Shown: one piece after another, positions 4,795 through 33,194 of the stretch
Position numbering within the stretch: position 1 is the stretch's first letter
Layout of the letters: every line of letters begins with the position of its first letter
NCBI GenBank assembly: GCA_001799795.1
Contig: MGUD01000001.1
Location: 12,558-46,017 of the forward strand
DNA: 33,460 bases
Reading direction: 5' to 3'
Source: Elusimicrobia bacterium GWC2_61_19
GTDB lineage: Bacteria > Elusimicrobiota > Elusimicrobia > Elusimicrobiales > UBA9959
The notes under the pieces: generated by a model
Seen by the model: only the letters and a program-made list of their open reading frames with translations
Told to the model about the DNA's origin: nothing
The model's database searches: none
Made by a program: the position numbers and the translations under genes

Positions 4795-6195
4795 TTATTT
4801 CGCCGTCAGCCATTTGGCGAAATCGTCCCATCTGCCTTCCCCGGCCCAGGCGAGCTCGTCGTAATCCGCTTCGTATCTGTAGGTAGGCAGATAGACGGCC
4901 AGGCCGTAGGCGTTCTTGAACTTGTCGCCGGTGGCGCCGTTGTCGAAGATCACTTTCTTGTAGAGATGGTCCATGACTTCCGCGGTCTTGGCTTTAAGGG
5001 CGTCGGACTTGGTTTTGCCGTGAACGTTCCGCAGGAAGTGTATCAGGTCGCGCGACTCGGCCCCGCCGAAAGCGGTGGCGTCGGCTAGCGCCGCGTTGAC
5101 CATGACCTTGTCCTCTTTCATCGCCAGCCCGGCCCACTGGTCGAGCAGGGTGCGGAAAGTGTTCAGGCCGGCGGTGTGTACCGCCGACTGGGTGGCGTTG
5201 GCGCCTTTCTCGCCGTAGAAGGCCTTATAGCCCTGCACGGCGGCGGCCGCCATTACGTCCGGGGTCAGGTTGCCCTTGTTGGAATGCACGCGGGCCAGGA
5301 AGTAGTCGTAGGCCCAGCCGTCGCCGGGCTCGTTCTCTTCGGAACCCACGGTGATCCTGGCGGCGTCTTTCAGCTCGTAGGCCACTTCCGCCATCTGCAT
5401 CAGGCAGGCGTCGGAGGCGTAGATGTCCACGCCGCCCATTTCGCGTACGGCGCGCCCCAGGTCGACGGTGCTGATGCCGTGGCCGGTCTCGTCGTCGTAG
5501 GAAATGCCCTTGAGCACGGGCCGGCCGAAGGCCTTGTTCTTCCAGCCGTCGCCGTGGTTCCACACTATCAGCATGTATCTTTTGGCGGGGTAATTCTGTT
5601 TGGCCCACTTGCCGAACTCAGCGAGCTGCTTGTAATCGCCCATGTCCACGGCGCCAAGGTCCGCGAGCATCGTCGAACTTAACGCGGCGTTGTCGCCGTC
5701 GGCGGTCACCAGGTAGCGGCGTACGCCGATCCAGTTAGTGGAGGCGTCGCCGGCTGCCGCGGTTTTCGCCAGCATAGGGGGCATATCCCAGGCGGGGTTA
5801 GGCCAGCCGGGATGGGGCACTACGGGGCCGTAGGGATAGCCGTCATAAGGCCCGTTGCTGGGCGGCGGGTAGTGCGGGTTCTGCTCCTCCGCCATGCGCG
5901 CGGCTTGCGCAACTATGTTGATGTTCCCGGTGGGGCCGTACTTCTCCATTTCGTTCATGTCCTCTATGACATAGGGGGCAAGATCGTTCTTGCCGTTCAT
6001 GAACACCATGATGGTCCATTCTTTGGGGGCCCGGCTGTTGTCGCGGAGGGCGGGCTGCGGTACCGGGACTTGGGAGGCCCTGGCCTGTGCCACGATGTCT
6101 TTTACGGAAGGCAGGGAATTGAAATTCTGCGCGGCGGCCGGGGCGGCCAGAAAGGCCGAGGTCAGCAGCAGTTTGCTTATGGCGAATATATTCAT
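4795..6195 (-). CDS. Secreted clostripain-family (C11) cysteine peptidase
   Basis: 466 residues. Clostripain-family enzymes are secreted or surface cysteine peptidases, usually cutting after Arg or Lys. The N-terminus is a signal peptide (hydrophobic 4-18, likely cleavage after AAA at 22). Core features: WTIMVFMNGKNDLAPY at about 60-75, the catalytic histidine in VWNHGDGW (H214), and the catalytic cysteine in YASDACLMQMAE (C264), followed by GSEENEPGDGW, the usual substrate-pocket segment. A proline/glycine/tyrosine-rich insertion at about 107-140 replaces the compact loop of many homologues and may be an exposed linker or self-processing site. ATG at 6195 is preceded on the minus strand by AGGAGA. 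It is the only minus-strand gene seen and stands alone between a terminator and a non-coding region, with no obvious partner, inhibitor or transporter next to it. The target protein is unknown. Confidence 0.92.
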   Translation of the reverse strand: MNIFAISKLLLTSAFLAAPAAAQNFNSLPSVKDIVAQARASQVPVPQPALRDNSRAPKEWTIMVFMNGKNDLAPYVIEDMNEMEKYGPTGNINIVAQAARMAEEQNPHYPPPSNGPYDGYPYGPVVPHPGWPNPAWDMPPMLAKTAAAGDASTNWIGVRRYLVTADGDNAALSSTMLADLGAVDMGDYKQLAEFGKWAKQNYPAKRYMLIVWNHGDGWKNKAFGRPVLKGISYDDETGHGISTVDLGRAVREMGGVDIYASDACLMQMAEVAYELKDAARITVGSEENEPGDGWAYDYFLARVHSNKGNLTPDVMAAAAVQGYKAFYGEKGANATQSAVHTAGLNTFRTLLDQWAGLAMKEDKVMVNAALADATAFGGAESRDLIHFLRNVHGKTKSDALKAKTAEVMDHLYKKVIFDNGATGDKFKNAYGLAVYLPTYRYEADYDELAWAGEGRWDDFAKWLTAK

Positions 6196-6561: not shown

Positions 6562-8403
6562 ATGAAATCAGTCTCTTCAGCGTTCCTTGCGGTCCTGCTC
6601 GCCCTTTGCGTTACGGGGGCCCATTCACAACAAAACAGCGAAGTATATCTCTCCGTCAGTAAATCCGTATTAAAAGGGCTGCCTAAACCAGCCGATGCCG
6701 TAGACCTTTACGTTCCGCCCGCTCAACGCGCGGCGGCGTCATCGGCCGGGGATCTTCTTGAGACGGCCTTGCCGGTAATGTTAAGGCGGGCCAACGGCTC
6801 CGCCGGGCTTGCCACCGCAGGGCTGCGCGGCTTCTCCTCCAAACAGACGGCGGTCTTTTACGACGGCATGCGTGTGCCCGCGGACCTGACCGGCACGGTG
6901 GATATTTCGGCCCTGCCCGCGGCCGACATAGAAAGGGTGGAAATACTGCCGGGCGCCTGGTCTTCGGTGCAGGGCGCCAACGCGGAGGGCGGAGTTATAA
7001 ACTTCGTCAGCCGCACCCCCGGCGCGGGAGCCCGCGCCGCACTTGGCACGACCCTGTCCTCCTACGGAGGCAACGCCAATACGGTGTCGTTCATGAGCGG
7101 CAATGGCCGGCTTAAAACCTCGGCGCTGGCTTCAAGGGAGGCCTCGGACGGCTTCCAGCGCAACGGCGCCGCGCGTAAAGAGTTCTTCACGGGCAAAGCT
7201 GTGCTGGCGGTGGGGGAGGGCGGCACGCTTTCTTTCAGCGCCTTACGGAACAATTCAGAGAACGGGGTGCCCGGCGGTACCCCGGTAGCCGTCGCCGATT
7301 GGAACGGCAGCAGGGAGCGGGCGGCAAATTCGCTGACCGACCTGCAGCGTTCCAGCCTCGGGCTCGCCCGCGCCGCTCTCGAAATGCCTTTAACGGAGAA
7401 TGTCAGCTATACCCTGACGGCGCAGTCCGGCGTGAATCGGCTATTCTCGCATACCGCCTGGAGTGACGAGCTGACCCGCACCCTCAGCAACAGAGGGCTG
7501 CTCAGTCTTTCGTTCTTCAATAAGGGCGAGGCCGGGATAGAATACGAAAAGGACCTCCTCAAGTCGGACACGTACGGCGATCACTATAAGCAGAATACCG
7601 GCATTTTCTCTCAATGGACCCTGGAGCCGCTTAAGGGTTTAAGCTTTACCCCTTCGCTGCGCTACGACAGGAACGTCGGGTACGCCGACCAGACCAGCCC
7701 CAGGCTCGCCGTTGTCTATGCGCCTGATGCCGTCTGGAAGTTTTCGGCGCAGACCGGGCGCGCCTGGCAGGCCCCGACTTTCGCCGACCTCTACAACCCG
7801 TGGGTGCCGGCGGCCGACCGTTCGCCGAACCTGAAACCTGAATATTCCTGGCAGACCCAGGCCGGGTTGTCGGCCGCTTTTGCGGCCGGTTTCCGGGTTT
7901 CAGTCGGCGCTTATTACTCCGACGTGAGGGACCGCATCGCCCTGGACCCGGCCAAGAGCTGGGCGGCTTACAATCTGGATTCGGCCTTCAACGAGGGGCT
8001 TGAGGCCGGCCTGGACTACAAGAGTTCCGCGTTCAGCGCGGGTCTGGGCTACGTTCACAATATAAGCAAGGGCCGGACTTCAGGCGGTTATAAAGAACTG
8101 TCTTTCAGCCCGCGGCACCGGTTCACCCTGAACGCCGCGGTTAAGACCCCCTGGGCGGATGTCCGCTCAAAGAGCTATTACAGCGCGCGGCAGTACACCG
8201 CGGCGGATCACGGCGGGCTTAAGCTGCCCTCGTATTTCACGGCGGACCTGTATCTGTCGAAAACGCTGGAAAGGTTCGAGATCTTCGCGGGGGCGGATAA
8301 TATCCTGGACGCCCATTACGCCCAGACGGCCGATACCATAAACGGCTATTATCCCCTGCCGGGCAGGGTGCTTAAATGCGGGCTGAGCGTCAGGTTCATC
8401 TGA
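6562..8403 (+). CDS. btuB: TonB-dependent outer-membrane receptor, BtuB-like (cobalamin uptake)
   Basis: 613 residues, essentially the length of E. coli BtuB. It has a signal peptide (about 1-22, hydrophobic core then AHSQ), a possible TonB-interacting segment near 45-51 (DAVDLYV), a plug domain of about 60-165 (TAGLRGFSSKQTAVFYDGMRVP, ADIERVEILPGAWSSVQGANAEGGVINFVSR) and a 22-strand-type barrel with many alternating strands, for example ALRNNSENGVPGGTP and PSLRYDRNVGYADQTSPR. The barrel ends VLKCGLSVRFI, close to the usual terminal aromatic. ATG at 6562 follows GGGAGGAAA. The cobalamin riboswitch directly upstream is strong evidence that the substrate is a cobalamin or related corrinoid. No btuC, btuD or btuF is next to it. 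The adjacent nickel operon raises the lesser possibility of a metal-chelate substrate, but riboswitch control argues against that. Confidence 0.9.
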   Translation: MKSVSSAFLAVLLALCVTGAHSQQNSEVYLSVSKSVLKGLPKPADAVDLYVPPAQRAAASSAGDLLETALPVMLRRANGSAGLATAGLRGFSSKQTAVFYDGMRVPADLTGTVDISALPAADIERVEILPGAWSSVQGANAEGGVINFVSRTPGAGARAALGTTLSSYGGNANTVSFMSGNGRLKTSALASREASDGFQRNGAARKEFFTGKAVLAVGEGGTLSFSALRNNSENGVPGGTPVAVADWNGSRERAANSLTDLQRSSLGLARAALEMPLTENVSYTLTAQSGVNRLFSHTAWSDELTRTLSNRGLLSLSFFNKGEAGIEYEKDLLKSDTYGDHYKQNTGIFSQWTLEPLKGLSFTPSLRYDRNVGYADQTSPRLAVVYAPDAVWKFSAQTGRAWQAPTFADLYNPWVPAADRSPNLKPEYSWQTQAGLSAAFAAGFRVSVGAYYSDVRDRIALDPAKSWAAYNLDSAFNEGLEAGLDYKSSAFSAGLGYVHNISKGRTSGGYKELSFSPRHRFTLNAAVKTPWADVRSKSYYSARQYTAADHGGLKLPSYFTADLYLSKTLERFEIFAGADNILDAHYAQTADTINGYYPLPGRVLKCGLSVRFI

Positions 8404-8455
8404 CGGCTCCCGCCGGCGGACGCCTGAACCTGAGGGCTCGCGCGGGTACGGAAAG

Positions 8456-8484
8456 TTGACCGGTCCCGCGCATTGTGCTACTAT
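8456..8484 (+). promoter_or_regulatory. nikR operon promoter
   Basis: TTGACC (8456-8461) and TACTAT (8479-8484) are separated by exactly 17 bases, and TGC just before the -10 makes it an extended -10 promoter. Transcription would start at about 8490, leaving a leader of about 12 bases with an AAAGG ribosome binding site before the nikR start codon at 8502. Confidence 0.8.
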
Positions 8485-8501
8485 TTAACTAAAGGTAACA
8501 C
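8475..8501. promoter_or_regulatory. NikR operator (palindrome)
   Basis: GTGCTAC at 8475-8481 and GTAACAC at 8495-8501 form an inverted repeat with a 13-base spacer and a single mismatch. As I recall from comparative genomics of nickel regulons, NikR sites in several non-enteric lineages have the form GTGTTAC-N13/14-GTAACAC, which this fits at 13 of 14 positions. It covers the -10 element, the start point and the ribosome binding site of nikR, so bound Ni-NikR would block transcription of the whole operon. No second copy was seen before the other genes of the window, including btuB and hypE. Confidence 0.82.
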
Positions 8502-8912
8502 ATGAACAACAAGCTCGTCAGGTTCGGCGTCTCGCTGGAGGGGGAACTCCTCCGGAAGTTCGACGCCTTCATCGCGGCGGAAGGCTACGACAACCGCTCC
8601 AAGGCCATTGCCGACCTGATCCGCCGGGACTTCGTTACCGATATTTTCGCCAAAGGCGGCGCGGTGGCGGGCGCCGTCACCATAGTGTACGACCATCACA
8701 AGCGCGAAGTCGTCAATAAACTGCTGGATATTCAGCACGACCACGGGGCGATAATCATATCCGCCCAGCATGTGCACCTGGACCACGACAACTGCCTGGA
8801 GATCATAGCCGTAAAGGGGCCCGGCGCCAAAGTGAAAGCCCTGGCCGATTCCCTTAAGGCCGTAAAAGGCGTTAAGCACGCCACACTCAGCGTGACCAGC
8901 GCGGGTAAATAA
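8502..8912 (+). CDS. nikR: NikR, nickel-responsive ribbon-helix-helix repressor
   Basis: 136 residues, the normal NikR length. The N-terminus is a ribbon-helix-helix DNA-binding domain (about 1-45; LVRFGVSLEGELLRKFD then YDNRSKAIADLIRR) and the C-terminus an ACT-like nickel-sensing domain. The four nickel ligands of the family are in place: H79 (DIQHDHG), H90 and H92 (SAQHVHLDH) and C98 (DNCLEII). Nickel-loaded NikR represses nickel uptake genes. It is the first gene of an operon whose later genes encode an ECF nickel importer, and its own promoter carries a matching palindrome, so it should be autoregulated. This gene is also the best evidence that the transporter downstream handles nickel rather than cobalt. 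Confidence 0.97.
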   Translation: MNNKLVRFGVSLEGELLRKFDAFIAAEGYDNRSKAIADLIRRDFVTDIFAKGGAVAGAVTIVYDHHKREVVNKLLDIQHDHGAIIISAQHVHLDHDNCLEIIAVKGPGAKVKALADSLKAVKGVKHATLSVTSAGK

Positions 8913-8967
8913 TTTTTTACCCAGGCGTAGCACGAAACGCAGAAAGGTAGCAATAAGGAGGAGTACT

Positions 8968-9621
8968 ATGAAGTTGAAGGCCGTATTGTTTTCTGCCGTT
9001 CTTATCTGCGCCGGCGCCGCCCGGGCGCAGGCGGCTTATCCGCTGGCCACTGACGACGCCGGCACGGTAAGCCAGGGCGGCTATGAACTTGAAGCGGGTT
9101 ATGACAGCGCGAAGGACGCTGAAAACCTGTCTAACCAGTCCAGCGCCTTCTCCTTTAAGCACGGGGTCACGGAAAAGATGGACCTGGGGCTGGCGCTGCC
9201 GTACCAGATACATCCCGCCGACGCGGAGAAACTCGGAGCGGCCTCGCTGGCGCTTAAGTTCTCGCTGGTCAAGGACATCGTCGCCGTTGCTTTATCGAAC
9301 GAGCTCGGCGAAAAGGATTACTTCCTTAACGCCATCTTCAGTAAAGCGTTCTCCGCCGTTAAACTCCATGTCAATGCCGGCTACCTTTCTACCGGCGATG
9401 AAACCGCAAAGGGGGCGGGCTCTTACGGCCTGGCGCTGGAATACCCGCTGGGTAAATTCGAGGCGGTGGGCGAGGTGCAGGGGCAGGAGGGCGGAGAAGG
9501 CGACGCTCTGGCCGGCCTGCGGTACAGGATAAGAGAGACGCTGTTCGTGGCCGGCGGCCTGGCCAGGGATTTCAAGTCCGGCCATGCCCGGCTGACCGCG
9601 GGGCTGCACTTTGAATTTTAA
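8968..9621 (+). CDS. Small outer-membrane beta-barrel protein in the nickel operon
   Basis: 217 residues. It begins with a signal peptide (about 1-22, ARAQA cleavage site), continues as alternating beta strands throughout (GGYELEAGYDSAKD, KMDLGLALPYQIHP, LHVNAGYLSTGDE, GLRYRIRETLFVAGGLARDF) and ends in LTAGLHFEF, a C-terminal strand closing with phenylalanine as outer-membrane barrels do. The general look is that of the 'MetA-pathway of phenol degradation'-like transporter or porin families (Pfam Phenol_MetA_deg type), but I cannot name it. ATG at 8968 has a strong AAGGAGGAG site 4 bases upstream. It lies between nikR and nikMN with short gaps, so it should be repressed by nickel together with the importer. 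An attractive inference is that it lets nickel or a nickel complex through the outer membrane; that is unproven, and no metal-binding motif is obvious. Confidence 0.8.
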   Translation: MKLKAVLFSAVLICAGAARAQAAYPLATDDAGTVSQGGYELEAGYDSAKDAENLSNQSSAFSFKHGVTEKMDLGLALPYQIHPADAEKLGAASLALKFSLVKDIVAVALSNELGEKDYFLNAIFSKAFSAVKLHVNAGYLSTGDETAKGAGSYGLALEYPLGKFEAVGEVQGQEGGEGDALAGLRYRIRETLFVAGGLARDFKSGHARLTAGLHFEF

Positions 9622-9651: not shown

Positions 9652-10692
9652 ATGCATATGGCAGACGCTTTGATCTCCCCGGCGGTAGGGGGCACTATGT
9701 GGGCGGTTTCGGGCGGACTTATCGCCTATAGCGCTAAAAAGGTCCGGGAAGAAGCGGACGACAGGAAGATCCCGCTGATGGGCGTGCTGGGCGCGTTCAT
9801 CTTCGCGGCGCAGATGATAAACTTCACCATCCCCGGCACCGGGTCCAGCGGCCATCTGGGCGGCGGCATGATCCTGGCTATTCTGCTCGGGCCTTGGTCG
9901 GCGTTCCTGGCGCTGGCTTCGGTGCTTACAGTGCAGGCGCTGTTCTTCGCCGACGGAGGGCTGCTGGCACTGGGCTGTAATATCCTCAACATGGGCTTTT
10001 TTACCTGCTTCTTCGCTTACCCGCTCGTCTACAAGAAGATAACCGGGGGGAGCCTGGATAAGAAACGGGTAATGATCGGCGCCGTGACGGCCGCCGTCAT
10101 AGGCCTGCAGCTCGGGGCTTTCGGCGTGGTAGTGGAAACGCTGGCTTCCGGCATTTCCGAACTGCCCTTTAAGACCTTTGTGCTGCTGATGCAGCCCATA
10201 CACCTGGGCATAGGCGTGGTGGAAGGCCTGGTGACGGCGGGCGTAGTGTCCTTCATGCTGAAGGCCCGCCCGGAGATCCTGGCCGCCGCGGCGCAGCGCC
10301 AGCCCATCGGCGTGAGCGTTAAGGGCGCGCTGGCGGGCCTAGCCGCGGCCGCGGTGCTTACCGGCGCCGCGCTCAGCTGGTTCGCCTCCGCCAACCCCGA
10401 CGGGCTGGAATGGGCCATGCTGCGGACCTCCGGCAGGGAAGAACTGGAAAGCTCCGGCAAACTGCACGGCTTGCTGGGCGCGCTGCAGGCTAAAACCGCT
10501 TTCCTGCCCGATTACGGTTTCCGTAAGCCCGAAGAGGCCCCCGCGGCGCCCGACGGGGAGGGGGCCCCCGCTCCCGCCTGGCCGGCCGTTGACGCCGGCA
10601 CGTCGGTGGCTGGGCTAGTGGGCGGTATTTCTACTCTGTTGATGACGGGCCTCATAGGATTTGCCTTAAGGCGCGGGAAAGCAGCGGCTTGA
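9652..10692 (+). CDS. nikMN: NikMN, fused substrate-binding components of an ECF nickel transporter
   Basis: 346 residues, longer than a lone CbiM/NikM (about 220-240) because a CbiN/NikN-like part is fused at the C-terminus. The NikM part has the N-terminal MHMADALISP; in this family Met1 and His2 coordinate the metal, so no upstream extension is possible and the start at 9652 is secure. A further ligand, H68, lies in GTGSSGHLGGG. About six membrane spans follow up to about 245. The C-terminal part has a PDGLE motif (249-253), a conserved LPDYGF loop around 285-290 and a final membrane span (about 315-340), the arrangement of NikN/PDGLE domains. It imports Ni2+ together with NikQ and NikO. 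The nikR context supports nickel over cobalt. Confidence 0.94.
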   Translation: MHMADALISPAVGGTMWAVSGGLIAYSAKKVREEADDRKIPLMGVLGAFIFAAQMINFTIPGTGSSGHLGGGMILAILLGPWSAFLALASVLTVQALFFADGGLLALGCNILNMGFFTCFFAYPLVYKKITGGSLDKKRVMIGAVTAAVIGLQLGAFGVVVETLASGISELPFKTFVLLMQPIHLGIGVVEGLVTAGVVSFMLKARPEILAAAAQRQPIGVSVKGALAGLAAAAVLTGAALSWFASANPDGLEWAMLRTSGREELESSGKLHGLLGALQAKTAFLPDYGFRKPEEAPAAPDGEGAPAPAWPAVDAGTSVAGLVGGISTLLMTGLIGFALRRGKAAA

Positions 10693-10698
10693 AAACTA

Positions 10699-11511
10699 AT
10701 GAGCGAACTCGGCGCTAGTCTTGTCGATATCGGCTATATGGATACGCTGGCGGCCGGCTCCACCCCGCTGCACAGGCTGGACCCGCGCGCGAAACTCCTG
10801 ACCACCGCCCTCTTCATCGTCGCCGTGGTCTCCTTCGGCAAGTACGAGGTTTCCGCGCTCCTCCCGTTCCTGCTTTACCCGGTGTATCTCGCCGCGGAGG
10901 GGCGGCTGCCCGCGCGCTACCTGTTCAAAAAGGTGCTGCTGGTCTCGCCGTTCGCGGTCATGGTGGGCATCTTCAACCCTTTCTTCGACGGCGGCGTGCT
11001 GCTGCGCGTGGGGCACCTCGGCGTATCAGGCGGCTGGGTTTCCTTCGCTTCGATACTGCTGCGTTTCCTGCTCACCGTCTCGGCCGCGCTGGCCCTGCTG
11101 GCCCTGACCGGGATAAATTCCATATGCGAGGGGCTCTTGCGGCTCGGCGCGCCAAGGGCTTTTGTGGTGCAGCTCCTGTTCCTTAACCGGTATCTATTCT
11201 CGCTCGCGGCTGAAACTGAAAATATGACCCGTGCCCGCGCACTGCGTTCCGCCGGGAAGCGCGGCATGCGGTTCGGGGTGTTTATCCAGATATTAGGCCA
11301 CCTGCTGCTGAAGACCCTGGACCGCGCCGAACGGGTCTACCGCGCCATGCTAGCCCGCGGTTTCGACGGGCATATCCGGGTGACCCGGGGCTATAAGATC
11401 GGCCGCCGCGAGCTGCTTTTCTTTTTCTGCTGGACGGCGCTGTTCGCGCTTTTCAGGTTCGTAAATCTCCCGGTAATGCTGGGGCAGGCGGTTACAGGAC
11501 TATTAAAATGA
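10699..11511 (+). CDS. nikQ: NikQ/CbiQ, transmembrane T component of the ECF nickel transporter
   Basis: 270 residues with several membrane spans. The N-terminal LHRLDPRAKLL is the standard opening of CbiQ-family T components, and the C-terminal RAERVYRAMLARGFDG is the family signature containing the Ala-Arg-Gly motif whose helix couples to the ATPase. It links the NikMN substrate unit to the NikO ATPase. It starts 6 bases after the nikMN stop and its own stop overlaps the start of nikO by 4 bases (ATGA at 11508-11511), so the three components are made together. Confidence 0.94.
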   Translation: MSELGASLVDIGYMDTLAAGSTPLHRLDPRAKLLTTALFIVAVVSFGKYEVSALLPFLLYPVYLAAEGRLPARYLFKKVLLVSPFAVMVGIFNPFFDGGVLLRVGHLGVSGGWVSFASILLRFLLTVSAALALLALTGINSICEGLLRLGAPRAFVVQLLFLNRYLFSLAAETENMTRARALRSAGKRGMRFGVFIQILGHLLLKTLDRAERVYRAMLARGFDGHIRVTRGYKIGRRELLFFFCWTALFALFRFVNLPVMLGQAVTGLLK

Positions 11512-12266
11512 GCCATCATATCGTTGAAGCCGCTAATATACATTACTCCTATCCCGACAGCACGGCCGCGCTGGACGGGGTTTCCTTCCGGATAGGGCAC
11601 GGGGAGTCCGTGGCGCTGGTCGGGGAGAACGGCGCCGGCAAGTCCACCCTGCTCCGCCATTTTACGGGCTGCCTGTTCCCGTCTTCAGGGATGCTGAAGA
11701 TAGATGGCGGGGTGGTGGAGAAAAAAAATCTGCCTGCGGTCCGCCGGGCGGTCGGGATGGTCTTTCAGAACCCGGACGACCAGCTTTTCATGCCGACGGT
11801 CTTCGAGGACGTGGCCTTCGGACTGCTGAACATGGGCGTGCCCGCGGCGGAGCTCGACGGCAGGGTCATGGCCGCGCTGCAAACCGTGGGGGCGGCCCAC
11901 CTGCGCTCGCGGCCGCCCTACCGGCTTTCGCAGGGCGAAAAGAGGGCCGCGGCTATCGCGGGCGTGCTGGCCATGGCCCCGGATATCCTGGTCATGGATG
12001 AGCCCACCTCTAACTTGGACCCAATGTCCCGCCGGCGGCTGATAACGCTGCTTAAAACATTCGGGCATACGAAGATCATCGCCACGCACGACCTGGACTT
12101 CGCCCTGGAAACGTGCGAAAGGACTATCGTCATCCATAAAGGCCGCGTGACCGCCGACGGGCCCACCGTGGAGATCTTTAATGACGAAAGGTTATTGACG
12201 GCCAGCAGCCTGGAAAAACCGATGTCCGCGCGGGCCTGGCCCCAGAACAGATTAAAAACTTCCTGA
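11508..12266 (+). CDS. nikO: NikO/CbiO, ATPase of the ECF nickel transporter
   Basis: 252 residues, a typical single ABC ATPase domain. Visible motifs: Walker A GENGAGKST (about residues 43-51), Q-loop in VGMVFQNPDDQLF, ABC signature LSQGEKRAAAIAG, Walker B ILVMDEPTSNLD and the switch histidine in IIATHDLDFAL. FQNPDDQLFMPTVFEDVAFG is characteristic of ECF-type (CbiO/EcfA) ATPases. A single ATPase gene implies a homodimer, as usual for dedicated nickel and cobalt systems. It is the last gene of the nik operon; no obvious terminator follows, and the next promoter begins about 20 bases downstream. Confidence 0.95.
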   Translation: MSHHIVEAANIHYSYPDSTAALDGVSFRIGHGESVALVGENGAGKSTLLRHFTGCLFPSSGMLKIDGGVVEKKNLPAVRRAVGMVFQNPDDQLFMPTVFEDVAFGLLNMGVPAAELDGRVMAALQTVGAAHLRSRPPYRLSQGEKRAAAIAGVLAMAPDILVMDEPTSNLDPMSRRRLITLLKTFGHTKIIATHDLDFALETCERTIVIHKGRVTADGPTVEIFNDERLLTASSLEKPMSARAWPQNRLKTS

Positions 12267-24419: not shown

Positions 24420-27400
24420 ATGTTTCTGCGATTTATTAAACACGGCCTTCCGGCCTTAAAGAAGCGTCTGGCCCGGCTCCTTCCGGCCGCCGAAATAGCC
24501 GACGAACAGCCCCTCAGGGCCGAGCTTTTCAATATCGACCAGTTCAAGCTGCACGCCGCCGGCATGGCCGCCAGGCACAGCGTAAGCTTTAAAAGGGGCA
24601 GGGAAAAGCTGCTGTCCCGCCTCAGGGAGAACGAGGGGATAATCCTCAGGGCTTATAAACTGCTCAACCAGTCCGGCAGCGACAAGAGAAGGATCTCTCC
24701 CGCCGGCGACTGGCTGCTGGATAATTACTATCTTATCGAGGAGCAGATACGCCTGGCGCAGAAATTCCTGCCGAAAGGCTACAGCAGGGAATTGCCGAAT
24801 CTGACCGGGGGCCCGCTGGCCGGCTATCCCAGGGTTTACGACATCGCCATGGAAATAGTTTCCCACGGCGACGGACGGCTGGATATAAAAGGCCTTGCCG
24901 GTTTCGTGTCCGCTTATCAGGAGATAAAACACCTGAAATTGGGTGAATTGTGGGCCGTCCCCATAATGATACGCCTGGCCCTGATAGAAAATCTCAGGCG
25001 CATCGCTTCCCGCCTTATCGTGGCACAACTCGACCGCGACGCCGCCGATTACCGCGCCAACAGGATCCTGGAGGTGCTGGCCAAGGACACCAGCGGCGTG
25101 ATCCTGGAGATAGCGTCGATGGCGAAGCTCGATCTGCCGATGTCGGATTCTTTCGTGGCCGAGTTCGTAAGACAGCTGCACGGGCAAAGCCCCGCTTTCA
25201 ACCTCCCTATCGTCTGGCTGGAAAAGAAACTGGCCGAGAACGGCAAGACCATCGAGCGGCTCATCCAGTCGGCCACCCGCAAACAGGCGGCAAGCCAGGT
25301 CTCGATCTCAAATACCATAGAGAGTCTGCGCTTCCTGGAAGTTACAGATTGGCACGACTTCGTGGAAAACCTGAGCGTCGCGGAAAAGGAACTGCGGAGG
25401 GACCCCTCCGGTCATTACGTCCGGATGTCTTTCGCCACGCGCGACAGCTACCGTCACGCGGTGGAAGACCTGGCGCTGCGCAGCCGGCAGGAGGAAGAGG
25501 TGGTGGCGGCGCGGGTGGTGCGGGCGGCTCAGGCTAAAGCCTCCGAAGGCCGCGGCGCGGCGGCGCACATCGGTTACTACCTCGTCGACAAGGGGTTGCC
25601 GGAGTTCTGCCGCTCCCTCGGGCTCCGGCTGCGGTTCGGGGATTATCTGGCGGCAAAAAGGACTTCGCCGGTCCTTATCGCCTACACGGGTTCCATTTTC
25701 ATTTTCACGCTCGCCGCCGCGGCGGGCGTCCTCCTGCTGGCCTGGGAACACGGGCTCAGGGGCTGGCCGTGGTTCGCCGCGTTCGGGGTCCCGCTCCTTT
25801 TTCTCACCAGCCAGGCGGCTATCAGCTTGGTTAACTGGTTCTTCACGCGCAGCGTGGAGCCCAAAAAACTGCCCAGGATGGATTTTTCGGAGGGGATCCC
25901 CGCGCACGCGCATACACTTACGGCGATCCCGACCATGCTGACCGGGAGCGGGGCCGTAGAAGCCCTTATCGAGGGCATCGAGGTCTGCTACCTGGGCAAT
26001 ATCGACGCCAATGTGGAGTTCGCGCTGCTGACGGATTTTTGCGACGCCGACCGGGAGACCATGCCCGGCGACGCGCAACTGCTGGCGCAGGCCTGCGAGG
26101 GCATAGAGAGGCTGAATAATAAATACCGCGCGCATAAAGAAAATACCTTTTATCTGTTCCACAGGCCGCGCCGGTGGAATGACAGGGAAAAGATCTGGAT
26201 GGGCTACGAGCGCAAGAGGGGGAAGCTTTCAGACCTGAACGCCCTGCTCCGCGGGAGGGGGCAAGACCGGTTCAGCACTATCGTCGGTGACCCGGAGCGG
26301 CTGCGGGACGTGAAATACGTGATAACCCTGGATACGGACACCCGGATGCCCAGGGACGCGGCGAGGGACCTGGCGGGGATAATAGACCACCCTCTGAACC
26401 GGCCGGTATACGACGAGAAGAAGCGCCGCGTCGTCTCCGGGTACGGTATCCTGCAGCCCAGGGTGGACCTCGGCTACCCCGGCGACAATCCCTCCCTGTT
26501 CATTAGGATCTTCGGGGGCGAGGCCGGCATAGACCCGTATACGAAGACGGTGTCGGACATCTACCAGGACCTTTTTCACGAAGGCTCGTTCATCGGCAAG
26601 GGGCTTTATGACGTGGACGCCTTTGAAAGGTGCCTCGGCGGGCGCTGGCCGGAGAACCTGGTGCTGAGCCACGACCTGCTGGAAGGCTGCTACGCCCGGT
26701 CCGCCCTGGTCACCGACGTGCAGCTGTACGAAAAATATCCCTCCGGCTACCTTGCGGACGCCAACCGCCGGCACCGCTGGATCCGCGGCGACTGGCAGAT
26801 CTCCGGCTGGCTGCTGCCTTTCGTCCCCGGGCCCGGGCGGCGGGAAAAAAACCCGCTCTCCTTTCTGTCCAAATGGAAGATCTTGGACAACCTGCGGCGC
26901 AGCGCGGTTCCAGCCGCCGCCGCGCTGCTGCTGTTCTCCGGCCTGGTCTATTTCGAACACCAGTGGTTCTGGCCCGCGGTAGTCATGGTTATATACGGGT
27001 TCCCCTCGCTGTTCTTCTCGTTCGTGGAGACGGCGGCTAAAAGCCGGGATATCACGCCGAAGGCCCACTTTACTTCGGCGGTTTATTCGCTGGGCCTGCG
27101 CGGCGTTCAGTTCGGCCTCTCGCTCGCGTTCCTGGTGCACGAGGCCTTCTACGGCCTTCACGCCATCGCCGTAACGTTCTGGCGCATGCTGCTTTCGCGC
27201 CGCCGCCTGCTGGAATGGCGGACCTCGGGAGAAGCGGAGCAGCAGTCAGCCAGGAGCGTGCCGGAGTATGCCAAAGGCATGCCCTCCGGTCCCCTGGCCG
27301 CGCTTTCTTTTGTGGCCTTGCTGAGCGCCGCGGGCAGGCGGCCGGACGCCCTGACCGCGGTATTCTGCGGGCTGTGGCTGCTGTCCCCGGCCATCGCCTA

Positions 27401-30400
27401 CTTCATAAGCCGGCCGCTTTTCTCCCGTAAGGCCGCCCTGTCCGGCGCCCGGACCATGTTTCTCCGGAGCCTGGCGCGCAAGACCTGGGGCTTTTTCGAG
27501 ACCTTCGTGACCGAGCGGGATAACTGGCTGCCGCCGGATAATTTTCAGGAGGAGTTCCTCGGCGTAGTGGCCCACAGGACTTCCCCCACGAATATGGGCC
27601 TCTCGCTGCTGTCCAACCTGGCGGCTTACGATTTCGGTTACGTCTCCATGGGGGCGCTGTTCAACAGGACCGAGAAAACGCTTAAAACTATGAGCGGTAT
27701 GGAAAAATACCGGGGCCATTTTTACAACTGGTACGATACGGAATCCCTGAGGCCCCTGAAGCCGCTTTATATCTCTTCGGTAGACAGCGGGAACATGGCC
27801 GGGCACCTGCTGGTATTGCGCTCTGGCCTGCTGGAGATGGCTGGCGGCAAGGTAGTCTCGCCAAAAGTATTCGACGGCCTGGCGGATACCCTGTCCGTGC
27901 TGCAGGAATGCGCCGCCGAGCTGGAGAGAAGCAAAATAAGCGGCGCGGGGGCGGCCGCGCGGAAATTAGCGGATCAGGCGGCGCAGCTCGGGAAAAAATT
28001 AAAGCCCGCTCCGGATTCGGCCGCGGAAATGCACGCGCTGCTGCGCCGGCTGTCGGCGGAAAGTTCCCGGACGCTTTCCGGGCTCGAAGGAAAGCACTTC
28101 GACCGGACCAGGAAGTGGCTGGGCGCTTTTGAGCGGCAGTGCTATGACTGGCTCGAGGACATGGCGTTTATCGCGCCGTGGCTGCTGCTGCCACCGGAGA
28201 TCCCCGGCATGTGGGACAGGGGGGACGAGGGACAGCGGTCCCGGCTCTCCGGGCTGCGCCGGGAATTGCAGCGCCTGGACACCATCCCCTCCCTCTCCCA
28301 GGCGGCCAGGCTTGAACAGAAGCTTTTTCCGCTGATCGACGGGATAACCGCCAATTTAGGTTCTTCAGGCCCCGACGCCGCCAGGGAAAGGGACTGGCTC
28401 GCCCGGCTGAGGGCCGCGGTAAAAGAGACGGGGGACAGGGCGAGCGAAAGGATAGCCGCCATAGAGTCCATGGCGCTGCGCTGCGGCGAGCTGTCCGCGG
28501 TGGAATTCGAATTCCTGTACGACAAGGGCGCGCACCTCCTTTCTATAGGTTATAACGTCTCCGAGCGCAGGGTGGACCCGGGCTGCTACGACCTCCTGGC
28601 GTCCGAATCCCGGCTCTGCAGTTTCGTGGCCATCGCCCAGGGAAAGCTTCCTCAGAAACACTGGTTCATGCTCGGCCGTCTGCTTTCCAAGTACGGCGGC
28701 GACCCGGTGCTGGTGTCGTGGGGCGGGTCGATGTTCGAATACCTCATGCCCCTGCTGGTAATGCCGGTCTATGAAGGCACCCTGCTGGAGCTGACCTACA
28801 AAGCGATGATCGCGTGCCAGATAAAATACGCTTCCGATAATAATATCCCGTGGGGCATGTCCGAATCCGGCTATAACAAGCTGGACGCCGCACTGGCGTA
28901 CCAGTACCGCTCTTTCGGCGTCCCGGACATCGGCTTTAAACGGGGGCTTTCCGAAGACCTGGTCGTGGCGCCTTACGCCGCCGCCCTGGCCCTCATGGTG
29001 GAGCCGGCCAAGGCCTGCGCCAATCTGGAGCGCCTCGGCGCGGAAGGTTTCCAGGGGGAATACGGGTTTTACGAGGCGGTGGATTATACCCCCTCGCGGG
29101 CGGACCACGACGGCCTCCGCGCCGTGGTCAGGTCCTACATGGCGCATCACCAGGGCATGAGCCTGCTGTCCCTGGCTTATGTGCTGCAGGACAGGCCCAT
29201 GCAGAGGCGCTTCCTGGCCGACCCGATGTTCAAGGCCACGGAACTGCTGCTGCAGGAAAGGGTCCCGAAGGCCGTGCCGTTCCTTTACGATACCGAGGTC
29301 ACCGGGCTGCTCAGGAAGACCGAGGAGAGCGACGCCCTTTCGCGCGTTTTCACCACGCCCGACACCCCGGCGCCCGAAACGCACCTTCTCTCCAACGGCA
29401 GCTATAACCTGATGGTGACCAATTCCGGGGCGGGCTACACCCGCTGGAAGGATGTTGCGGTAACGCGGTGGCATGAGGACGCCGTGCTCGAGGGCGAGGG
29501 CACTTTCATCTACCTGCGCGATACCGTGAGCGGGGAGTTCTGGTCTTCGACGTACCAGCCGACCCTGAAAAGATCCGCTAAGTACGAAGCCATCTTCTCG
29601 CGGTCCCGGGCCGAGTACCGGCGCAGGGACCACAAGATCGACGTGCATACCGAGATAGCGGTTTCGCCCGAGGACAACATCGACCTGCGCAGGATAAATA
29701 TCCGGAACCTTTCGCGCGAGACCAGGGTCATAGAGCTGACCAGTTACGCCGAAGTGGTCCTGAACGCGCCGGCGGCGGACCTGTTCCACCGGGCTTTCAG
29801 CAATCTTTTCGTGCAGACGGAAATAGTCAGGTCCCACCAGGCGATAATCTGCAGCAGGCGGCCGCGGTCCGAAAAGGAGAAATTCCCTTTCCTGGCGCAT
29901 TTCATGGCCGTGCACGGCAACGCCGTAGTCGGCGCCGCCTACGAGACCGACCGCGACAAATTCATCGGCCGGGGCAACACCCTCGCCGCCCCCGCCGCCA
30001 TGCATGGCGGGAGTCTTTCCGACAGCGAAGGCCCGGTGCTCGATCCCATAGTTTCCATCCGCTGCACGATCAGGCTCCAGCCCGGCGAAGAGGCGGTGAT
30101 CGATTATGTCACCGGCGTAAGCGACAGCCGGGCCGCCGCCATGACGCTTATAGAAAAGTACCGGGACCGCAACCTGGCCGACAGGGTTTTCGACCTGGCC
30201 TGGACGCACGGCCAGGTGGCGCTGCAGCAGATCAACGCCACGGAATCCGACGCCCAGGTGTACGGCCGCCTGGCCAGCGCCATCATTTACGCCAACCCCG
30301 AGTGGCGGGCGCACGCCAGCGTTCTGCGGCAGAACCGGAGGGGCCAGACCGACCTGTGGGGCTACGGCATTTCGGGTGACCTGCCTATAGTGCTTGTCCG

Positions 30401-33194
30401 CATTGAGGACCAGGAGAATATAGGGTTGATAGCGCGGATGGTGCAGGCCCACTCTTACTGGCGCATGAAAGGCCTGCCGGTGGACCTGGTCATCTGGAAC
30501 GAGAACAGCTCCGTTTACCGCGACGAGCTGAGTGAAAAGATAAACGACCTGGTGTCGGCTAACGCCAAGCTGCTGTCGGACCGCGGCGGCAGGATCTTTT
30601 CGCGGCGCGCGGACCAGATGTCCGAAGAAGACAAGATCCTCATGCTGACCGTGGCCAGGATAGTGATTACCGACAGGGGCGGCACGTTAAGCGAACACCT
30701 GGACCGCATAGCGCGGCTGGCGGCGCCACGCCTGCTCTCCGCTGCGGCCAGGCTGGCCGTGCCGGATGTGGCGGCGCGGGCGCCCGCGCGGCGCCCCGAC
30801 CTGGTATACTTTAACGGCCTGGGCGGCTTCACTAGCGATGGGCGTGAATACGTGATCTCGACCGGACCGGCGAAGTTTACGCCCGCCCCCTGGGTGAACG
30901 TGATCGCCAACCGGCATTTCGGCACCATCATTTCCGAGAGCGGCAGCGCCTATACGTGGAGCGAGAACGCGCAGCAGTTCCGCCTTACCCCGTGGAAGAA
31001 CGACCCGGTCACGGACGCCTCCGGTGAGGCTCTGTACGTGCGCGACGAAGAGACGGGCCGCTTCTGGTCGCCGACGCCGCTGCCGGCGGGACGGGGCGGT
31101 TATGTTTCGCGCCATGGTTTCGGCTACACCGTCTTCGAGCATGAGGAGGACGGCGTCGCTACGGAGTTAACGGTCTTCGTTCCGCTGGACCACCCGGTAA
31201 AATTCGCCGTTTTAAAGATCCGCAACGCTTCCGGGCGCAAAAGAAGCCTGTCGGCCACTTCGTACAACGAGCTGGCGATGGGCACGCTCAGGGACAGCGC
31301 CCACATGCATATCCTCACTGAGGTGGACCCTAAGAGCGGCGCACTGACCGCCTATAACCATTACAACAAGGAGTTCCCGGGCAGAGTTGTTTTTCTCGAC
31401 GTAAGCGAAACGGCGCGTCTCGTAAGCGGCGACAGGCGGGAATTCATAGGCCGCAACGGCACCCTGGCCGCCCCCGCCGCGATGCGCGGCGAAGCGCTCT
31501 CGGGCAAAACGGGGGCCGGCTTCGACCCGTGCGCCGCCATGCAGGTGAAATTCGAACTGGAAGACAACGAGGAAAAAGAAATAGTCTTCACCCTGGGCGC
31601 CGCAAAAAGCGCCGACGAAGCGCGCGGGATACTGCAGCGGTTCAGCGGGGCCGCCTCGGTGCGCGACGAGCTTAAAAACGTCTGGGAATACTGGAAGCGC
31701 GCGCTAGGCGTGGTCTACGTGGAAACCCCGGACAACTCGGTCAATTTCCTGGTCAACGGCTGGCTGCAGTACCAGGTGCTCAGCTGCCGCCTGTGGGGAC
31801 GCAGCGGCTATTACCAGTCCGGCGGCGCGTACGGCTTCCGGGACCAGCTGCAGGACGTTATGTCGCTGACGCATTCCCACCCCGGGATCATAAGGGAACA
31901 ACTGCTGGCTTTCGCCGCGCGCCAGTTCCCCGAAGGGGACGTGCAGCACTGGTGGCATCCGCCCTCGGGCCGCGGGACCCGCAGCCACTGCTCCGACGAT
32001 TACCTCTGGCTGCCCCTCGTCGCGTGCCTTTACGTGGAGGAGATCGGCGACACCGGCGTGCTCGATGAGCCGGTGGGTTTCCTGGACGGCCCTCCAGTAA
32101 AGCCGGAAGAGGAATCCTATTATGACCTGCCGAAGCAGGCGGGTAAGTCCGGGACCCTGTACGAGCATTGCGTCCTGGCCGTGAAGCACGCGCTCAAGTT
32201 CGGCGTCCATGGCCTCCCCCTGATGGGCAGCGGCGACTGGAACGACGGCATGAACCTGGTGGGGCGCGAGGGCAAGGGCGAAAGCGTCTGGCTGGCGTTC
32301 TTCCTGTGCCATGTCCTCAGGTCCATGGCCGTCCTGGCCGCCGGCCGCGGCGACAAGGACTTTTCGGAACTGTGCCTGGAAGAAGCCGGCAAATTGTCGC
32401 GCAATATAGAAATCTCGTCGTGGGATGGCCAGTGGTATAAGAGGGCCTACTTCGACAGCGGGGAAGCCCTCGGCTCCGCGTCCAATACGGAATGCCGTAT
32501 AGATTTGCTGCCGCAGTCCTGGGCTGTTATCTCCGGCGCGGCCGACAAAGGGCGGGCCGCGGCGGCCATGGAGCAGGTGGACCGGCGGCTCGTGGACAGG
32601 AAGGAATCGCTGATAAAGCTCTTCGAGCCCCCGTTCGATAAATGCGCCAGCGATCCGGGCTACATAAAGGGCTACCTTCCGGGGGTAAGGGAGAACGGCG
32701 GGCAGTATACCCACGCCGCCGTCTGGTCGGTTATCGCTTTCGCGATGCTGAAGGACAGCAAGCGCGCGTGGGAACTGCTGGGCCTTATCAACCCGGTCCG
32801 CCACGCCGCTACGCCCGAAAAATGCGCCGTTTATAAGGTGGAGCCTTTCGTCATGCCCGGCGACGTCTACGCCGGCGGTCCTAATGCCGGGCGCGGCGGC
32901 TGGACCTGGTACAGCGGCTCCGCTTCGTGGATGTACCAGCTCATAGTCAGGCATTTGCTCGGCATCAGGCTGAGGGTAGACAGACTTTACTTCGAACCGT
33001 GCCTGCCCCAAGAGTGGCGGTCGTTCAAGGTCCATTACCGGTACAGGGAGACTTTTTACCACATAAATATAGAACGGTCCGGGCCGGCGGATAAAGTGGT
33101 TTCGGTCGTAGTGGACGGGACGGAGCGTGAGGACAGGACCATCCCTCTCGCCGACGACAGGGCGGAGCACAGCGCGGAAGTCAGGATCGGATAA
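24420..33194 (+). CDS. ndvB: Cyclic beta-1,2-glucan synthase (NdvB/Cgs; GT84 plus GH94)
   Basis: 2924 residues, close to the about 2830-2870 of the Rhizobium and Brucella enzymes. It makes periplasmic cyclic glucans from UDP-glucose, which act in osmotic adaptation and host interaction. Order: cytoplasmic N-terminus with the typical WLLDNYYLIEEQIRLAQ (about 98-114); membrane spans at about 417-440 and 446-470; GT84 glucosyltransferase with VITLDTDTRMP (D638, D640) and HRWIRGDWQ (785-793); several more spans at about 825-1000; a glycoamylase-like domain of about 1050-1575 (HRTSPTNMGLSLLS, MSESGYN, HHQGMSLLSL); then two GH94 N-terminal-like beta domains, each with a FIGR..TLAAPAAM motif (near 1848 and 2342), and the GH94 phosphorylase-type domain with GDWNDGMN (catalytic D2609) that sets ring length. 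The ATG at 24420 has a CCGGAG site. It stands alone; no ndvA-type exporter follows. Confidence 0.96.
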   Translation: MFLRFIKHGLPALKKRLARLLPAAEIADEQPLRAELFNIDQFKLHAAGMAARHSVSFKRGREKLLSRLRENEGIILRAYKLLNQSGSDKRRISPAGDWLLDNYYLIEEQIRLAQKFLPKGYSRELPNLTGGPLAGYPRVYDIAMEIVSHGDGRLDIKGLAGFVSAYQEIKHLKLGELWAVPIMIRLALIENLRRIASRLIVAQLDRDAADYRANRILEVLAKDTSGVILEIASMAKLDLPMSDSFVAEFVRQLHGQSPAFNLPIVWLEKKLAENGKTIERLIQSATRKQAASQVSISNTIESLRFLEVTDWHDFVENLSVAEKELRRDPSGHYVRMSFATRDSYRHAVEDLALRSRQEEEVVAARVVRAAQAKASEGRGAAAHIGYYLVDKGLPEFCRSLGLRLRFGDYLAAKRTSPVLIAYTGSIFIFTLAAAAGVLLLAWEHGLRGWPWFAAFGVPLLFLTSQAAISLVNWFFTRSVEPKKLPRMDFSEGIPAHAHTLTAIPTMLTGSGAVEALIEGIEVCYLGNIDANVEFALLTDFCDADRETMPGDAQLLAQACEGIERLNNKYRAHKENTFYLFHRPRRWNDREKIWMGYERKRGKLSDLNALLRGRGQDRFSTIVGDPERLRDVKYVITLDTDTRMPRDAARDLAGIIDHPLNRPVYDEKKRRVVSGYGILQPRVDLGYPGDNPSLFIRIFGGEAGIDPYTKTVSDIYQDLFHEGSFIGKGLYDVDAFERCLGGRWPENLVLSHDLLEGCYARSALVTDVQLYEKYPSGYLADANRRHRWIRGDWQISGWLLPFVPGPGRREKNPLSFLSKWKILDNLRRSAVPAAAALLLFSGLVYFEHQWFWPAVVMVIYGFPSLFFSFVETAAKSRDITPKAHFTSAVYSLGLRGVQFGLSLAFLVHEAFYGLHAIAVTFWRMLLSRRRLLEWRTSGEAEQQSARSVPEYAKGMPSGPLAALSFVALLSAAGRRPDALTAVFCGLWLLSPAIAYFISRPLFSRKAALSGARTMFLRSLARKTWGFFETFVTERDNWLPPDNFQEEFLGVVAHRTSPTNMGLSLLSNLAAYDFGYVSMGALFNRTEKTLKTMSGMEKYRGHFYNWYDTESLRPLKPLYISSVDSGNMAGHLLVLRSGLLEMAGGKVVSPKVFDGLADTLSVLQECAAELERSKISGAGAAARKLADQAAQLGKKLKPAPDSAAEMHALLRRLSAESSRTLSGLEGKHFDRTRKWLGAFERQCYDWLEDMAFIAPWLLLPPEIPGMWDRGDEGQRSRLSGLRRELQRLDTIPSLSQAARLEQKLFPLIDGITANLGSSGPDAARERDWLARLRAAVKETGDRASERIAAIESMALRCGELSAVEFEFLYDKGAHLLSIGYNVSERRVDPGCYDLLASESRLCSFVAIAQGKLPQKHWFMLGRLLSKYGGDPVLVSWGGSMFEYLMPLLVMPVYEGTLLELTYKAMIACQIKYASDNNIPWGMSESGYNKLDAALAYQYRSFGVPDIGFKRGLSEDLVVAPYAAALALMVEPAKACANLERLGAEGFQGEYGFYEAVDYTPSRADHDGLRAVVRSYMAHHQGMSLLSLAYVLQDRPMQRRFLADPMFKATELLLQERVPKAVPFLYDTEVTGLLRKTEESDALSRVFTTPDTPAPETHLLSNGSYNLMVTNSGAGYTRWKDVAVTRWHEDAVLEGEGTFIYLRDTVSGEFWSSTYQPTLKRSAKYEAIFSRSRAEYRRRDHKIDVHTEIAVSPEDNIDLRRINIRNLSRETRVIELTSYAEVVLNAPAADLFHRAFSNLFVQTEIVRSHQAIICSRRPRSEKEKFPFLAHFMAVHGNAVVGAAYETDRDKFIGRGNTLAAPAAMHGGSLSDSEGPVLDPIVSIRCTIRLQPGEEAVIDYVTGVSDSRAAAMTLIEKYRDRNLADRVFDLAWTHGQVALQQINATESDAQVYGRLASAIIYANPEWRAHASVLRQNRRGQTDLWGYGISGDLPIVLVRIEDQENIGLIARMVQAHSYWRMKGLPVDLVIWNENSSVYRDELSEKINDLVSANAKLLSDRGGRIFSRRADQMSEEDKILMLTVARIVITDRGGTLSEHLDRIARLAAPRLLSAAARLAVPDVAARAPARRPDLVYFNGLGGFTSDGREYVISTGPAKFTPAPWVNVIANRHFGTIISESGSAYTWSENAQQFRLTPWKNDPVTDASGEALYVRDEETGRFWSPTPLPAGRGGYVSRHGFGYTVFEHEEDGVATELTVFVPLDHPVKFAVLKIRNASGRKRSLSATSYNELAMGTLRDSAHMHILTEVDPKSGALTAYNHYNKEFPGRVVFLDVSETARLVSGDRREFIGRNGTLAAPAAMRGEALSGKTGAGFDPCAAMQVKFELEDNEEKEIVFTLGAAKSADEARGILQRFSGAASVRDELKNVWEYWKRALGVVYVETPDNSVNFLVNGWLQYQVLSCRLWGRSGYYQSGGAYGFRDQLQDVMSLTHSHPGIIREQLLAFAARQFPEGDVQHWWHPPSGRGTRSHCSDDYLWLPLVACLYVEEIGDTGVLDEPVGFLDGPPVKPEEESYYDLPKQAGKSGTLYEHCVLAVKHALKFGVHGLPLMGSGDWNDGMNLVGREGKGESVWLAFFLCHVLRSMAVLAAGRGDKDFSELCLEEAGKLSRNIEISSWDGQWYKRAYFDSGEALGSASNTECRIDLLPQSWAVISGAADKGRAAAAMEQVDRRLVDRKESLIKLFEPPFDKCASDPGYIKGYLPGVRENGGQYTHAAVWSVIAFAMLKDSKRAWELLGLINPVRHAATPEKCAVYKVEPFVMPGDVYAGGPNAGRGGWTWYSGSASWMYQLIVRHLLGIRLRVDRLYFEPCLPQEWRSFKVHYRYRETFYHINIERSGPADKVVSVVVDGTEREDRTIPLADDRAEHSAEVRIG

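Follow-up and report, generated by a model that had tools for sequence, protein, structure and literature searches.

A small predicted outer-membrane barrel encoded between nikR and nikMN in Elusimicrobiota is a candidate TonB-independent channel for nickel

The window analysed here, a stretch of 33,460 nucleotides from Elusimicrobia bacterium GWC2_61_19 (contig MGUD01000001.1, positions 12,558 to 46,017), carries on its forward strand, in this order, genes for a TonB-dependent receptor, the repressor NikR, a small barrel protein, NikMN, CbiQ and CbiO (Table 1). The receptor gene adjoins nikR directly on its upstream side and was absent from the account of the locus given in an earlier note, which had proposed the barrel as a new type of nickel entry protein. 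The genome containing the window (1.36 Mb, 66% complete) also encodes a hydrogenase large subunit in which both CxxC pairs are present. Scanning genome contigs with the window protein found one relative, in Elusimicrobia bacterium UBA5214 (locus L002), where [NiFe] hydrogenase small and large subunit genes follow soon after cbiO, just downstream of the operon. Elsewhere in the window, a single open frame on the forward strand (24420-33194) encodes a giant protein of 2924 residues.

Table 1. Features of the nickel operon in the window, and His-rich proteins found before nikK at two other loci
Feature	Coordinates	Strand	Description and basis
TonB-dependent receptor gene	6562..8403	+	613 aa, Plug and barrel, BtuB/siderophore-receptor-like; PF00593 5.5e-35, PF07715 9.2e-14
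Predicted nikR promoter	8456..8484	+	sigma-70-like, TTGACC-N17-TACTAT; consensus match
Predicted NikR operator 1	8475..8501	+	GTGCTAC-N13-GTAACAC; exact to IUPAC pattern
nikR	8502..8912	+	nickel-responsive repressor, 136 aa; NikR_C 8e-33, NCBIfam NikR above cut-off
Predicted NikR-type site 2	8927..8953	+	GTAGCAC-N13-GTAGCAA, between nikR and barrel; one mismatch to degenerate pattern
Ribosome binding site of barrel gene	8955..8961	+	AAGGAGG, six bases 5' of ATG; read directly
Small outer-membrane barrel gene	8968..9621	+	217 aa, ATG start
nikMN	9652..10692	+	ECF substrate component, CbiM domain and PDGLE domain; HMM
cbiQ/nikQ	10699..11511	+	ECF transmembrane component; HMM
cbiO/nikO	11508..12266	+	ECF ATPase; HMM
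His-rich secreted protein before nikK-nikL-nikMQO	L179:2551-3345	-	260-264 aa
His-rich secreted protein before nikK-nikL-nikMQO	L180:4509-5291	+	260-264 aa

The open reading frame that the earlier note had described, with its signal-peptide-like start and strong ribosome binding site, proved to be a real gene: a chance frame is ruled out because it is conserved as protein in four relatives (73, 55, 51 and 42% identity). The N-terminus, MKLKAVLFSAVLICAGAARAQA, resembles a signal peptide by eye (residues ~1-22), and is followed by a conserved segment, PLxTDDxGTV (25-34), 12 predicted strands (38-216) and a C-terminal Phe; the mature protein has ~195 residues. No match was found in Pfam or NCBIfam at E≤1, and PHROGs assigned the protein to no family. 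A TonB-dependent receptor was ruled out by the length of the protein and the lack of a PF07715 or PF00593 match.

AlphaFold2, run on the window protein together with the L002 protein, predicted 12 antiparallel strands (mean pLDDT 52.6, pTM 0.49), as did the reverse job on the L002 protein (mean pLDDT 55.0, pTM 0.49); the confidence of both models is modest because the alignments held two sequences only. Along the predicted strands of 15 aligned short barrels, hydrophobicity alternated with a mean difference of 3.08, against 1.36 (s.d. 0.28) in within-strand shuffles, a value reached by 0 of 5000 shuffles; this is a check and not a blind proof, since the strand limits were taken from the AlphaFold2 model. 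The top Foldseek matches of the model were porins, with the COG4313 channel 4rl8 among them, and VIA-align gave Z 14.7 for OmpG and Z 11.0 for 4rl8 (rmsd 4.4, 180 residues; VIA-align 2). The score for 4rl8 is not distinctive, other barrels scoring equally well or better, and because many barrels were listed (OmpG, CymA, FadL, COG4313) these comparisons indicate a fold class only. Searching the sequences of solved structures returned one match at 0.025, a designed barrel, with alignment A1, and none with alignment A3. Taken together, the protein is predicted to be a 12-stranded outer-membrane barrel, as the earlier note had proposed; the alternative it had named, a periplasmic non-barrel protein, is ruled out by the 12 strands, the in/out alternation and the C-terminal Phe.

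Conserved acidic and His residues fall on the predicted lumen side, where the earlier note had suggested looking for pore-lining His/Asp: in the 15 short barrels E42, D72, E158 and E169 are each present in all 15, as are N121 and N136, and H214 in 14. D29 and D30 of the N-terminal segment are kept in 14 and 15 of the 15, respectively; this segment precedes strand 1 and lies in the low-confidence part of both AlphaFold2 models. The wider alignment A1 likewise shows no variation at P25, E42, G66 and K97; these residues are shared with relatives from non-metal contexts, and their role may be structural.

Using the window barrel as query against the 235 genomes of its class gave matches in 27 genomes, of which four were strong (the window protein itself and the relatives of 73, 55 and 51% identity) and the rest weak, with lengths of ~245-260 residues. 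A profile of five short barrels was then compared with 340 Elusimicrobiota genomes, with matches in 33 of these genomes at E≤1e-5; the 16 genomes with matches above 80 bits define what we call the short-barrel family (L157, being the same place as L002, was counted once, and the barrels of G338 and G339 are identical, hence not independent). In a tree of 46 barrels, 14 short ones formed one clade (100/98), which the barrel of G235 joined at 99/83. PF13557 (Phenol_MetA_deg) gave no match to the window barrel at E≤1 and none to the other short barrels scanned at E≤0.01-1; it scored above cut-off in five of the seven longer or wider relatives scanned (L036 twice, L050, L040, L048, L051 and L176), L040 giving no match. 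From this clade, and from the PF13557 matches of the longer relatives, the short barrel is, by sequence, a distinct, shortened and diverged lineage beside the PF13557 (COG4313-like) barrels. Spread beyond Elusimicrobiota was assessed in plasmid and phage records, where the window protein had no match.

The association with nikR and nikMN that had been proposed from a single locus recurs across the phylum. In 13 of the 16 short-barrel genomes the next gene is cbiM/nikM (G000, G113, G132, G145, G330, G337, G325, G339, G338, G326, G238, G241 and G239), and nikR lies directly upstream of the barrel in 11 of the 16, the exceptions among the 13 being G326 and G241. No NikR match was found in the genome of G326, so the association of the short barrel concerns the importer no less than the regulator. 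Two further short barrels, those of G322 and G235, adjoin FeoB (NCBIfam score above cut-off), and in G235 the opposite neighbour is a Fur-family gene. The barrel gene of G242 runs off the contig end; a NikR-type site immediately precedes it, and nikR lies 4.9 kb upstream of it. A metal importer thus adjoins the short barrel wherever the neighbours are readable (15/16), and the link of the short barrel to nickel is strong.

Viewed from the regulator and importer, the phylum contains 25 pairs of nikR and cbiM within 2.5 kb on one strand, counted from 87 NikR matches above 60 bits and 42 of 76 CbiM matches; the rows left out were mostly family f21 and weak matches, and no NikR match was seen on their contigs. 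A barrel (scoring over 100 bits within the class, or among 13 matches added from the phylum profile search) lies between the two genes in 14 of the 25, 11 of these being short and three longer (G120, G148, G329). Ten pairs have no barrel between them, the matched domains being separated by 27-127 bases, too little for a gene. The remaining pair, in G334, encloses a 264-aa barrel-like protein together with nikK- and nikL-like genes, a combination found also in G243. The G334 protein is 65% identical to the one in the same place in G243, is His-rich and ends in Phe, and its match to the barrel profile is weak (hhalign, single-comparison E 9e-6 and 0.001); it may represent a third type of barrel in this slot.

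At six loci of family f1 (L044, L046, L049, L051, L128, L129) a UreH-like permease replaces the ECF importer, and the longer barrel stays between the permease and nikR. The permease was named from a weak nickel/cobalt-efflux-family match, one PF13386 match, the place of the gene and the description of the family. Because barrels of the wider family are kept when the importer is exchanged, the barrel goes with nickel uptake and not with one pump.

Several further arrangements were seen around nikR. Twelve loci (L036, L038, L044, L046, L049, L051, L115, L116, L118, L122, L128, L129) share a frame made up of a C11 peptidase, in many cases a TonB-dependent receptor, nikR, the barrel and an M15 peptidase, while the importer swaps between CbiMQO and the UreH-like permease. 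A longer-type barrel lies 5' of nikR at L033 (~5384-6124), L038 (~7812-8546) and L118 (6587-7384), with a second barrel on the 3' side of nikR at L033 and L038. At L036:11463-13901 (+) a NikR paralog (135 aa, 33% identity) stands beside a TonB-dependent receptor, and low-scoring NikR-like proteins with weak NikR_C matches occur in many genomes of the class. At L182:765-5676 and L183:5133-9999, the gene next to nikR encodes a TonB-dependent receptor and is accompanied by genes for a ZnuA-like binding protein, an ATPase and a permease, which may together form a metal or metallophore system controlled by NikR; in L182 nikR is flanked by two NikR-type sites.

The predicted regulatory sites of the window support the placement of the barrel inside a NikR-controlled operon that the earlier note had proposed. 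Operator 1 overlaps the -10 element of the predicted promoter and its end meets the ATG of nikR; allowing up to one mismatch, its pattern occurs at this place alone in the 1.36 Mb of sequence available for this genome. In site 2 the spacing is identical, and the two halves point the same way. For comparison, the consensus described for delta-proteobacterial NikR is GTGTTAC-N13/14-GTAACAC, with half-sites also seen reversed (excerpts of PMC545781). A degenerate pattern, GTRNYAC-N13-GTRNYAC with up to one mismatch, was tested on 32 nikR loci and found at nikR in 28 of them and between nikR and the next gene in 19, in most of the latter 15-19 bases past the nikR stop; at the short-barrel loci the figures were 9/11 for each site. 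Shuffled stretches contained such a site in 1 of 1280 cases, a figure that bounds chance and not choice, because the pattern was derived from these same loci once they had been inspected. The first gene downstream of the second site varies (barrel, cbiM, UreH-like or TonB-dependent receptor), and all of these are uptake genes. Their placement over promoters would agree with repression by Ni-NikR, and the barrel is a predicted member of the NikR regulon. No NikR-type site was found 5' of the TonB-dependent receptor gene within the window; at L119, L120 and L125 such sites do precede receptors. One further NikR-type site, which may be due to chance, was found in the genome containing the window (G000, contig C22:54157-54183; L173:6658), at the 3' end of a ParB-like gene and before a frame for a secreted protein.

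Within the class, 38 barrels, longer or short, matched above 150 bits. For 20 of them a NikR match is found within 5 kb, and for the other 18 it is not (in one of these, that of G121, the distance is 5064 bases). Among 51 strong NikR matches, a barrel stands within 5 kb of 17 and is absent from that range in the remaining 34. Among the barrels away from NikR, those at L042 and L050 stand beside znuA/znuB-type genes and that at L035 adjoins FeoB; CusA/CzcA-type pumps adjoin the barrels at L039 and L040, and a cation-efflux gene that at L043. No recognisable metal gene was found around the barrels of L110, L112, L113, L037, L045 and L047, nor, by BLAST alone, a match to the metal-gene query set near those of L111 and L114. 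In three Burkholderia replicons (L175, L176, L177) a PF13557-type, longer barrel directly follows mgtA, encoding a magnesium-importing P-type ATPase (NCBIfam TIGR01524 above cut-off in L175; the L176 and L177 genes 87 and 93% identical), and a longer-type barrel of Paraburkholderia (L178) follows generic, non-metal ABC genes. The earlier note had held that homologues in contexts unrelated to metals would speak against a nickel role: the short family provides none where its neighbours can be read, but some distant PF13557-type relatives stand beside heavy-metal efflux pumps and others at sites without any recognisable metal gene.

The reading we favour, with a probability of roughly 0.6, is that the barrel, repressed by NikR, is an outer-membrane channel through which nickel reaches the ECF importer without the help of TonB. 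The gene, the order of the operon and the conservation of its neighbourhood across the phylum are observed directly. Under nickel scarcity the barrel would be derepressed together with the importer and would admit free Ni2+ or a small complex into the periplasm by diffusion. NikMN-QO would take up this periplasmic nickel and keep its level low, and therefore drive diffusion through the barrel. Once nickel sufficed, Ni-NikR would occupy the sites before nikR and before the barrel and shut both off. This scheme builds on a predicted fold, predicted NikR sites and predicted repression, and on the inference of a barrel open to Ni2+, of conserved lumen-side acids and His favouring cations, and of passage without TonB. 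The analogy with COG4313 channels cautions that the N-terminus may plug the barrel and that hydrophobic molecules may be preferred. Nor need it be the main nickel route, because a TonB-dependent receptor adjoins nikR here and in several relatives, and NikR-type sites precede receptors elsewhere; barrel and neighbouring receptor may work side by side.

That receptor also raises a distinctly less probable reading, in which the barrel passes a nickel ligand or complex, a counter-ion or a buffer, or is a general small-solute pore induced at low nickel, and the selective step lies elsewhere, for example in the receptor itself. A receptor is likewise present in several relatives (L033, L038, L044, L051, L116, L118, L122 and L129), COG4313 relatives bind amphipathic molecules (excerpts of PMC4493636), and members of the wider family occur beside the ABC genes of L178 and in non-metal neighbourhoods. 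However, at many short-barrel loci (L002, L158, L160-L163, L166) the stretch read contained no TonB-dependent receptor, and the short family is paired with a metal importer wherever its neighbours are readable. Rather improbable is a metal-binding or structural protein with no through-pore, which would buffer or sense nickel or protect the envelope from nickel stress. The PLxTDD segment, which almost every member retains, could block a narrow barrel in the manner of Pput2725, and models of low confidence cannot show a pore; yet the NikR sites overlap the promoter, as in nickel-repressed uptake genes (excerpts of PMC545781), which favours uptake over stress defence, and the barrel is paired with importers (NikM, UreH-like, FeoB) rather than with enzymes. 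An outer-membrane part of a metal export route, suggested by the distant relatives beside CusA/CzcA pumps and a cation-efflux gene, is very improbable, as those CusA/CzcA pumps already have a TolC-like gene beside them and the short family occurs with importers only, under a repressor that stops uptake at high nickel.

If the NikR-repressed nickel channel is real, this small, phylum-conserved barrel would be a cheap, TonB-free route for nickel, and some members of a very large barrel family, whose sole annotation is 'MetA-pathway of phenol degradation', would gain a testable function. The neighbourhoods link barrels of the PF13557-type family to FeoB, Znu-type and MgtA importers. It is possible, though less likely than not, that the window barrel belongs to a large unrecognised group of small TonB-independent channels, each paired with an importer of one divalent metal (NikMNQO or UreH-like permeases for nickel, FeoB for ferrous iron, ZnuAB-type importers for zinc, MgtA for magnesium), with selectivity residing in lumen-facing acidic and His residues and barrel types being swapped in the same operon slot.

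To our knowledge, the only outer-membrane route established for nickel is through TonB-dependent receptors, in a small number of bacteria; elsewhere the task is assigned to general porins. The reported entry proteins named in excerpts of PMC11247825 (FrpB4, FecA3, CntO, NikH and others) are TonB-dependent, FecA3 and FrpB4 being under NikR, and porins are held there to be poor for cations. Whereas these transporters are large, plugged and TonB-driven, the window barrel has 217 residues and no Plug domain. NikK and NikL, secreted accessory proteins of NikMQO systems that are encoded with nikM under NikR (excerpts of PMC545781), are DUF4198-type periplasmic proteins and not barrels.

The COG4313/PF13557 channels (Pput2725, TcpY, SphA) resemble the window barrel in having 12 predicted strands, a signal peptide, a segment before strand 1 and a C-terminal barrel strand. 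They differ in their mature length of 270-320 residues (excerpts of PMC4493636), in the PF13557 match that the window barrel lacks and in their operons, which concern hydrophobic compounds rather than nickel. According to the same excerpts, Pput2725 (PDB 4rl8), the one COG4313 channel with a solved structure, has its N-terminus blocking the lumen and conducts only above 150 mV; it is thought to carry hydrophobic molecules, and it has a strongly electronegative outer cavity and conducts ions in vitro.

By function, the window barrel is likened to MnoP, the manganese channel of Bradyrhizobium, a non-TonB channel; the window barrel is likewise co-regulated, in silico, with an inner-membrane importer of its metal, and the two differ in that metal, manganese in one case and nickel in the other. 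The source paper for MnoP is reportedly Hohle et al. 2011. Excerpts of PMC9334652, PMC3449104 and PMC6011978 describe MnoP as induced by manganese scarcity, needed for manganese uptake and selective in proteoliposomes, and RopAe, the copper porin of Rhizobium etli, as up-regulated when copper is scarce. RopAe is an outer-membrane barrel, as is predicted for the window protein, but larger, with 338 aa and 16 strands, and of the PF02530 family. Because TonB-independent, metal-specific channels have thus already been reported for manganese and copper, the 'new type' of entry protein claimed in the earlier note stands for nickel and for this protein lineage, and not for the principle.
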